From NCBI GenBank assembly GCA_028683595.1, contig JAQUHM010000003.1, positions 1-34,855 on the forward strand: a stretch of DNA of 34,855 nucleotides, read 5' to 3'. Every line of letters begins with the position of its first letter. Position 1 is the stretch's first letter. This DNA comes from Geobacteraceae bacterium (GTDB lineage: Bacteria; Desulfobacterota; Desulfuromonadia; Geobacterales; Geobacteraceae). The translations under genes and the position numbers were made by a program. Positions 31,753-34,855 of this stretch are shown piece after piece. The notes below the pieces were generated by a model. The model was not told the DNA's origin. It did no database searches and saw only the letters and a program-made list of their open reading frames with translations.

Positions 31753-32895
31753 CTAGGTTTTGATGATTTCATGCATGGTGCTGAGAAAGGTCTCGATCTC
31801 CTGATCCGTGGTGAACCAGCCGGGGCTTACCCGGATGGTGCCGGCAGGATAGGTGCCGATGGTGCGGTGAGCCCACGGGGCACAGTGAAGGCCGGTCCTT
31901 ACTTCAATATCGTATTCCTGGTCCAGGGTGAACCCGAGCATGGCGGGATCCCTCCCTTCAACGGTGAAGGAGACGATGCCGCCCCGCTCCTTTTCCGGAG
32001 CGGGACCATAGAGGGTAATCCCCCGTAATCTGCCAAGTCCTTCCACCAGGTGGCGGGCGAGGGACATTTCTTTTTTTCGGATTGTCTCGATCCCGGTGCT
32101 GAGAATGAATTCCACCCCTGCCCGTAAGCCTGCAATGCCGGGGGTGTTAAGAGTGCCGCTTTCGAAACGGTCCGGCATTTCTTCCGGTTGCTCTTCACCA
32201 CTTGAGTGGCCGCCGGTTCCTCCCACCACCAAGGGTGGCAATTCCAGGCCTTCCGCAATATAGAGAAATCCGGTGCCTTGTGGTCCCAGCAGACCCTTGT
32301 GGCCTGGTGCGGCAAGGAGACTGATTCCCATGGCCGTGACGTCGATCGGCATGACACCGGCAGTCTGGGCGGCGTCAACCAGCAGCGGTACACCTGATTT
32401 GGTTGCCAGATGGCCGATTTCGGCCAGCAGCTGAACAGTGCCGGTGACATTTGAGCAGTGGGAAAGGACGATGAGGCGGGTGTCGGCTCGGAGTGCTGCT
32501 GCCAGGTCACGGGGATTGAGGAACCCGCTCCGGTCGCAGGGTATCCGGGTGATTGACGATCCCCGTTTTTCGGCCAAGCGGAGTGGCCGGGAAACCGAAT
32601 TGTGCTCCATGGTTGTGGTGACGGCATGGTCGCCGGGACGTAGCATCCCGGCGATTGCCAGGTTCAATGCCTCGGTTGCGCTGCTGGTAAATGCCAGGCG
32701 GGATGAGTCCTTGATCCCGAACAACTCTGCCAGGCTTTCCCGTGCCCCGAAAACGATGCGGGTTGCATCCAGGCCCCGGCGGTAGCCACCACGCCCGGGG
32801 CTGGTGCCGATCTCCCGGAGGGCATGGTCCACTGCCCGGTAGACCGATTCCGGCTTGGGATGGGAGGTGGCAGCATTGTCGAGGTAGATGGGCAT
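31753..32895 (-). CDS. Cysteine desulfurase-like class V aminotransferase
   Basis: MPIYLDNAATSHPKPE, TSSATEALNLAI, VDAAQTAG, PLP-Lys AAPGHKGLLGPQG, active-site Cys region VRTGLHCAPWAH. Confidence 0.9.
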   Translation of the reverse strand: MPIYLDNAATSHPKPESVYRAVDHALREIGTSPGRGGYRRGLDATRIVFGARESLAELFGIKDSSRLAFTSSATEALNLAIAGMLRPGDHAVTTTMEHNSVSRPLRLAEKRGSSITRIPCDRSGFLNPRDLAAALRADTRLIVLSHCSNVTGTVQLLAEIGHLATKSGVPLLVDAAQTAGVMPIDVTAMGISLLAAPGHKGLLGPQGTGFLYIAEGLELPPLVVGGTGGHSSGEEQPEEMPDRFESGTLNTPGIAGLRAGVEFILSTGIETIRKKEMSLARHLVEGLGRLRGITLYGPAPEKERGGIVSFTVEGRDPAMLGFTLDQEYDIEVRTGLHCAPWAHRTIGTYPAGTIRVSPGWFTTDQEIETFLSTMHEIIKT

Positions 32896-32903
32896 GGTTG
32901 CTC

Positions 32904-33071
32904 CTAGGAGTCTGTCGGGCTTAGGAAGTCGATGCGAAAATTCGACTGGGCGAGGACAGATTTTGTCGATTTTGCTGGGCAATAGTTGTTCTAATGACCA
33001 AAAAAACGGCGGAATATGGACCGGACAGATGGATTTGCAGCAGACTTTACCTAAGTCCGACAGACTCCTAG
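32904..33071. mobile_element. MITE-like non-coding element with CTAG flanks
   Basis: 18-bp TIRs GAGTCTGTCGGGCTTAGG (32908-32925) and CCTAAGTCCGACAGACTC (33050-33067), 17/18 complementary; CTAG at both edges; 160-bp core with no convincing ORF. Confidence 0.82.
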
Positions 33072-34144
33072 AAACGGCTGCGCAGGGCAAAGTGAAAAAC
33101 GACATCCGGGGCGGTATCAACCCACACATCTTCCGAAACCCCCACATCGAGGAATGTCTTTTCGCTGAAGCCGATTGTTCCTCCCGAGACCAGTTGGATG
33201 GAGCCGCTGTTCACCTGTTTCAGGTTGCTGCCGGTATAGAAGGAGGTATGGGCGTCGCCCTGGACCTTCAGTGCGAGCCATTGCAGGGGGCTCCAGCCGA
33301 AACCGAGGGAACCGAACCCGACAAGGTTACGCTGCTGGTCTTCCAGTACGTCGCCGTCGGTCAAGGCCATGCCGCCGGCGGCAGCATATACTGTCAGGTG
33401 GCCGAGGGGCAGTTGGCAGTCGTCGCTGGCGGTCAGCCATAGGGCGAAATCGGTGCTGCCGCTACCGAAGAGGCGGTTGCTGTTACCGGTGGGTAGCTTG
33501 ATGCTGGCGTGCAGTGCGACTGCCAGAGGTGCTGCTGAATCACCTTGGTGGAGCTGCCATGCTCCTGAGAGGCGGATGTCGCCGATGCCATTCGAACCAT
33601 CGTTAACCAGAACCTTCGTGACTCCATTTCTGGTGTACTGATAGAGAAGCCGGTTGCGGGGGGATGATTTGCGTATCCCTTGGGGCAGGCCGAAGGCATC
33701 GTGGAAACCTTCGATGAAATCGTCAAGAAATCCGCCGCTGTTCGCCAGATAGGGAATGTCGATACCGACCTGGAATCCCGGTGCGATTCCGTAACGGGCC
33801 GAGAGATTGAAGCGGTAGGTCTCACCGTCGAGCATGATTTCGTCCGACTGCGAGATGCCGGACGTAGAGTTGCTCGATACGTCGCTGGTGAGAGTTGCCT
33901 CGAAACTGCTGGCCGGAACAACGCTGGCACTGCCGATTGAGGGCAGGCCGAAAACCCGAATCAACGGGCTCTGGTTATTGCTCTGGAAAGGGATGATATC
34001 CATGGCGGCCACGGTATCCGGAGTGCCAGGGACCATGACAGCTAGGGCCAGCAGGAGCAATCCCACGTAATTGAAGGGGCGCCAACCGGCAGAATTGCGT
34101 GACTGCCGGTCTGGTGAACGTGTAATTTTGCAAACAATATACAT
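33068..34144 (-). CDS. DUF3187-like outer-membrane beta-barrel protein
   Basis: Signal peptide region, amphipathic beta strands, terminal Phe (FHFALRSRF*); start MYIVCKITRS with AAAGGAG SD. Confidence 0.72.
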   Translation of the reverse strand: MYIVCKITRSPDRQSRNSAGWRPFNYVGLLLLALAVMVPGTPDTVAAMDIIPFQSNNQSPLIRVFGLPSIGSASVVPASSFEATLTSDVSSNSTSGISQSDEIMLDGETYRFNLSARYGIAPGFQVGIDIPYLANSGGFLDDFIEGFHDAFGLPQGIRKSSPRNRLLYQYTRNGVTKVLVNDGSNGIGDIRLSGAWQLHQGDSAAPLAVALHASIKLPTGNSNRLFGSGSTDFALWLTASDDCQLPLGHLTVYAAAGGMALTDGDVLEDQQRNLVGFGSLGFGWSPLQWLALKVQGDAHTSFYTGSNLKQVNSGSIQLVSGGTIGFSEKTFLDVGVSEDVWVDTAPDVVFHFALRSRF

Positions 34145-34353: not shown

Positions 34354-34855
34354 ATGATTTTTCTTTCGCTGTTCTTCTTTCTTTTCCTCTCCAGCTCGAG
34401 CGCTGGAGATTGTGGCACTTTCTACAATCATCTCTGGGGCGGTTTTTCAACCTCCCTCGTCAATCGTTCGCCGGAGCAGCGCGGCAATGCTGATCGGGCT
34501 GCTATGGACCTGAACGGTATCATCATTTTCCCGGGAGCAGTGTTCAGTTTCAATGACAATGTTGGCGCAAGAGACAGTATGAAAGGATATCGCCCGGCAC
34601 CGATCATCAATGACCAGGGAGGCCTGAGTGATATCCCGGGAGGCGGCATCTGTCAACTGGCCACAACTATCTATAATGCGGCGCTCGAGGCAGGCCTTGA
34701 GATCGTTGAACGACATCCCCATTCGCGGAGCGTGAGCTATGTACCTCCCGGGCGCGACGCCACTATTCTTACCTGGCGCAAGGATCTGAAGCTGCGCAAT
34801 CCCCATTCTTATCCCCTGCTGCTGAGAGTGGTGGTGGCAGAAAATCGGCTGACGG
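34354..34855 (+). CDS. VanW-family protein (truncated by window end)
   Basis: Manual translation MIFLSLFFFLFLSSSSAGDCGTFYNHLWGGFSTSLVNRSPEQRGNADRAAMDLNGIIIFPGAVFSFNDNVGARDSMKGYRPAPIINDQGGLSDIPGGGICQLATTIYNAALEAGLEIVERHPHSRSVSYVPPGRDATI; AAAGGAGG SD. Confidence 0.9.
   Translation, partial: MIFLSLFFFLFLSSSSAGDCGTFYNHLWGGFSTSLVNRSPEQRGNADRAAMDLNGIIIFPGAVFSFNDNVGARDSMKGYRPAPIINDQGGLSDIPGGGICQLATTIYNAALEAGLEIVERHPHSRSVSYVPPGRDATILTWRKDLKLRNPHSYPLLLRVVVAENRLT

Follow-up and report, generated by a model that had tools for sequence, protein, structure and literature searches.

MITEs are normally lineage-specific remnants, and palindromes of the ERIC, Correia and REPIN types are short, multicopy, hairpin-forming and intergenic. 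The element analyzed here is likewise short, multicopy, hairpin-forming and intergenic, but it is set apart from the descriptions of those palindromes by its ends, by its target and by an interior conserved across distant groups. Within the Geobacter group, the Chunjie MITE of Geobacter uraniireducens is described, in a paper citing Chen et al. 2008, as 178-235 bp long with direct repeats and one copy in an operon (PMC10969869). As outlined in that paper, Chunjie resembles the present family in being a Geobacter-group MITE with a copy inside an operon, and the same outline (PMC10969869) separates the two, since the present family is 162-165 bp long and carries no direct repeats. IS5 of E. coli makes a 4-bp target duplication, with CTAG as its commonest target (PMC5493358); the present element shares the CTAG target but has other ends and no duplication. 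In the IS1182 family, some members target palindromes, and IS1272 is reported to make no target duplications and to target inverted repeats (PMC5678879). Our element resembles this family in its 14-17 bp ends, AGGAGYCTGTCGGA(CTT), in the CT^AG edges that were also found around two full insertion sequences (L327 and L429), and in the lack of a target duplication. It differs in that the 164 bp contain no transposase and in that the terminal ~16 bp alone match, the interior being unrelated to that of L327 or L429. IS1272, moreover, replaces a stem-loop target, whereas the empty sites corresponding to our locus show no loss of target DNA.

The window, that is, the whole stretch of 34,855 nucleotides that was analyzed, carries the element between two co-directional genes. 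The relevant features are as follows.

31753..32895, minus strand: gene for a class-V aminotransferase (cysteine-desulfurase-like), on the downstream side of the element (PF00266, 5e-87)
32901..32905, minus strand: AGGAG, Shine-Dalgarno-like, of the downstream gene, wholly host DNA
32904..32905, strand not applicable: CT, left-flanking host half of the CT^AG target
32906..33069, plus strand (the strand with the favoured single-strand fold family-wide): MITE, 164 bp, AGGAG...CTCCT (covariance model 152 bits on the plus strand, 63 on the minus strand)
32906..32925, plus strand: left terminal inverted repeat AGGAGTCTGTCGGGCTTAGG
33050..33069, minus strand: right terminal inverted repeat AGGAGTCTGTCGGACTTAGG (minus-strand sequence)
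33068..33070, minus strand: rebuilt TAG stop of the upstream gene, T from the host (33070) and AG from the element (33069-33068)
33070..33071, strand not applicable: AG, right-flanking host half of the CT^AG target
33068..34144, minus strand: gene of the DUF3187 outer-membrane type, on the upstream side of the element, coordinates including the stop (PF11383, 4e-61)

The beginning of an open reading frame with a VanW-type look (judged by eye) also lies at 34354-34854 on the plus strand, divergent from the DUF3187 gene.

The original prediction was of a MITE-like insertion with inverted ends and CTAG edges, and this was borne out: the arms at 32904-32925 and 33050-33071 are 22 nt long and 95% complementary, CTAG is present at each edge (32904 and 33071 outermost), and the same genome contains 16-18 copies, several of them truncated. 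While the inverted pair does span 32904-33071 as predicted, the mobile unit is 32906-33069, and the outermost CT and AG belong to the host. The element is short (164 bp) and non-coding, with 20-bp terminal inverted repeats and no transposase inside, and empty sites demonstrate insertion polymorphism both for the window site and for another copy (L062). A target site duplication was not found; assignment to a MITE of the IS1182 family is still allowed, because the IS1182-type elements detected in this work and IS1272 lack a duplication as well. As a MITE event, the insertion in the window is ordinary, and its junction is neat.

Of the 58 genomes searched, 15 had matches to the element, and one complete genome (G026) contains as many as ~60 copies. 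The ends, together with a recognisable core, recur in elements of 162-165 bp from named isolates, among them Dyella nitratireducens, Pseudomaricurvus alcaniphilus, Marinobacterium profundum and Endozoicomonas species, and from metagenome-assembled genomes (MAGs) of betaproteobacteria and Desulfobulbaceae; a more divergent element was seen in a spirochaete MAG. The family is broader than was to be expected: elements of ~164 bp with common ends and core are present in beta- and gammaproteobacteria and in Desulfobacterota, and probably in spirochaetes too; MAG records may be mis-binned, which leaves the isolates unaffected. A covariance model added full-length copies from other families of the phylum to which the window belongs, though just 10 of 297 genomes had them, a patchy distribution. 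Among 120 loci, some have the same ends around other interiors, and the ends are thus more widespread than the 164-bp core. Plasmid and phage collections yielded one partial match, on a Pseudomonas plasmid, and nothing besides. At two loci (L145:405-564 and L166:401-561), copies adjoin or are nested against the terminal repeat of another copy. A description of this hairpin family was not found in the sources searched.

The RNA fold of the 168 nt in the window is exceptionally stable (z = -7.5; none of 200 shuffles equally stable). When 32 copies were aligned, 93% of the cells were paired, against 29-51% with the partners slid, and 29 of 48 pairs had changed on both sides; double-changed cells numbered 238 versus 82 in shuffles, although copies within a lineage are non-independent, so that p-values overstate the evidence. 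Such symmetry might be no more than a by-product of cruciform DNA or of the correction of palindromes as they replicate, and not reflect selection for a single-stranded fold, since compensatory changes can also arise by template switching where no selection acts. Correction of a DNA palindrome should, however, give G-T and A-C mismatches equally, and in folds computed without G-U pairs the former outnumbered the latter 79 to 8. Nor does it account for the plus strand forming the more stable fold in 40 of 41 copies, although the orientation of the element relative to neighbouring genes was without bias (21/20/20/19), which makes an external strand bias unlikely; and the unpaired motifs are conserved too. 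The strand bias is spread over ~30 of the 48 pairs, and canonical copies that the model detected later, and that had no part in building it, are biased in the same direction. We regard a by-product of this kind as unlikely, though of all the alternatives it keeps the most weight.

The G-T excess, the stability of one strand and the compensation together suggest selection on the single-stranded fold of the plus strand, as RNA or as ssDNA. Our fuller reading is that the family may be a mobile structured nucleic acid with conserved internal motifs and compensatory, strand-specific selection, spread between distant groups by IS1182 ends, and thus a transposon-borne ncRNA or an ssDNA transposition hairpin and not a passive deletion derivative; to this we would give an even chance. 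The window copy had no match in Rfam above the gathering score, and other copies hit only generic microRNA hairpins, far below the cut-off. One 190-bp copy (L469:1501-1690) contains an extra ~25 nt, which fold into an additional hairpin at the apical loop and leave the remaining fold intact.

For the edges, the four outermost bases per side were tabulated, first in 81 copies and then in 95, the latter from five genomes. CTAG stands on both sides of 42 copies, and this, together with the CTAG duplications made by IS5 (PMC5493358), would suit an IS5-like MITE that duplicates a 4-bp CTAG target, as the original prediction had it, with asymmetric copies resulting from later mutation; at a CTAG target, that model and insertion without duplication yield identical sequence. 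Three observations make it improbable. First, mutation should strike all four positions equally, but in G026 the inner AG/CT deviate in 1 of 176 cells and the outer CT/AG in 33 of 176 (Fisher 8.5e-10), the inner rate being comparable to the ~2% deviation of the terminal repeat; over all 95 copies the inner and outer deviations were 18/380 versus 84/380 (8e-13). Secondly, IS5 also duplicates CTAA, TTAG and other YTAR tetramers, and equal non-CTAG tetramers on both sides were seen in none of the 95 copies. Thirdly, the matching ends belong to IS1182 elements. A further possibility, an IS630/Tc1-like MITE reading GGAG...CTCC with TA duplicated within CTAG, gives the same final sequence at a CTAG target and agrees with the NTAN target of IS630 (PMC5678879), but is hardly credible because the putative TA copies behave in opposite ways (variation is 16% at the left T and 2% at the left A, but 0% at the right T and 16% at the right A) and an IS630 transposase with these ends was not seen.

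The unit is consequently AGGAG...CTCCT set into CT^AG without a target duplication, its inner halves being conserved like the terminal repeat and the outer halves variable. The left and right outer dinucleotides in G026 vary independently, with CTAG on both sides in 24 copies where 21.0 are expected from the separate frequencies; duplication of a target, be it CTAG or TA, would not produce such a pattern. In other bacteria the outer bases are chiefly CT on the left (34/48) and AG on the right (38/48), with CC/GG second. Orthologous empty sites read GTAG (three relatives) or ATAG (one more relative) for L062, and CC^AG (three genomes) for L171. They agree with one tetramer that was not duplicated, and by themselves also with a mutated duplication; orthologous empty sites are few for copies with both outer sides deviating, and they separate the two models weakly. 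At six other copies (L054, L057, L061, L147, L149 and L122) the orthologous sites are strongly diverged or shifted.

The terminal repeats of the element, AGGAGYCTGTCGGACTTAGG, are of the IS1182 type. Partners were found by scanning species genomes for the end sequence and by searching relatives for IS1182 transposases. Two full insertion sequences were obtained, both encoding an IS1182 transposase, bearing AGGAG[T/C]CTGTCGGA ends and flanked as CT^AG: L429 is 1603 bp long with ends AGGAGTCTGTCGGACT and AGGAGCCTGTCGGACTT between flanks CT and AG, and L327 is 1499 bp long with shared ends AGGAGCCTGTCGGA between the same flanks. Against the NCBIfam IS1182 model, the L429 transposase scored 354 bits with neighbouring pieces and that of L327 gave 2.8e-70; L430 and L441 have a single matching end each. 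The element thus shares its ends with insertion sequences that carry an IS1182 transposase, and it shares the palindromic CT^AG preference without duplication. The search for further copies and a transposase with matching repeats, proposed at the outset, found the copies in the genome itself and transposases with matching ends in other genomes. Neither the genome that carries the element nor G007 and G026, two relatives rich in copies, yielded an intact IS1182 element with matching ends, and reading of the neighbourhoods of the repeats in its own and related genomes revealed no transposase. The IS5/IS1182 N-terminal domain (PF05598) had no match in G026, G017, G042 or G006 and a single match, without matching ends, in G007. 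Open-licence papers contained nothing relevant on the end sequence or on IS1182 together with MITEs.

Since the partner elements come from other genomes and no intact one was found in these three, mobilization in trans is what we infer: an IS1182-family transposase, of the DDE type, would move the element into the centre of CTAG-like sites. The element would accordingly be named an IS1182-linked MITE, the link consisting solely in common ends and edges. Taken as a whole, the description of 32906-33069 as a non-autonomous MITE with IS1182-type ends, inserted at CT^AG without duplication and moved in trans by an IS1182-family transposase, is in our judgement probably correct. A second MITE type with the same IS1182-type ends, of 148-150 bp and with a different AT-rich interior, was observed in another family of the phylum (L463, L464, L465 and L470).

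At the gene junction, the DUF3187 gene ends on the minus strand as CGT TTC TAG, and the sequence ahead of the aminotransferase start reads CTAGGAGCAACC ATG, also given as AGGAGCAACC-ATG; a long hairpin now occupies the interval of 172 nt that separates the two genes. A tightly packed, co-directional pair split by the element had been predicted, with an empty site consisting of the stop codon, 8 nt and the next start. This arrangement, TTTTAGGAG(T/C)ACCG-ATG, was found at the same joint in two congeners (loci L088 and L089), with TTT in place of TTC: CGA-TTT-TAG-GAGTACCG-ATG in G007 and CGT-TTT-TAG-GAGCACCG-ATG in G006. The insertion is therefore real and has separated a tightly spaced pair. 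The reverse history, an ancestral insertion precisely lost in these two congeners, is compatible with the two genomes by themselves, but G001, G003 and G005, with different spacings at this joint, lack the element as well, so that several independent precise losses would be required; we consider it extremely unlikely.

The target in the window was the TTC-TAG-GAG joint between the DUF3187 gene and the cysteine-desulfurase-like gene 8 nt downstream. TAG was split after its T, the stop was rebuilt by the terminal AG of the element, and the AGGAG of the second gene was left intact. Because AG opens the element and CT closes it, insertion into CT^AG makes each junction read CTAG again. The right CTAG does supply the restored stop, as had been proposed, but the AG of this stop is the element's own end and not a duplicated target. 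The proposal that duplication also restored the Shine-Dalgarno sequence did not hold, for the AGGAG ahead of the second gene consists of host DNA throughout and was never broken; CTAGGAG is seen on both sides because the first five bases of the element are AGGAG too. Loss of the tight spacing may have changed the coupling of the two genes. Copies L058:2135-2294, L124:543-703 and L147:404-563 likewise lie in very short intergenic gaps directly upstream of genes.

With AG...CT ends and a CT^AG target, the element can land in a stop codon, rebuild it and split packed genes while breaking neither. Of more interest than the insertion itself is the family to which it belongs, a transposon-borne hairpin that shows strand-specific compensation and is conserved among distant bacteria. 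Unlike usual MITEs, the 164-bp family keeps its length, its core motifs and its strand-biased fold across distant bacteria, and it allows a direct test of whether a transposon system of the DDE type needs, or disseminates, a folded RNA or ssDNA.
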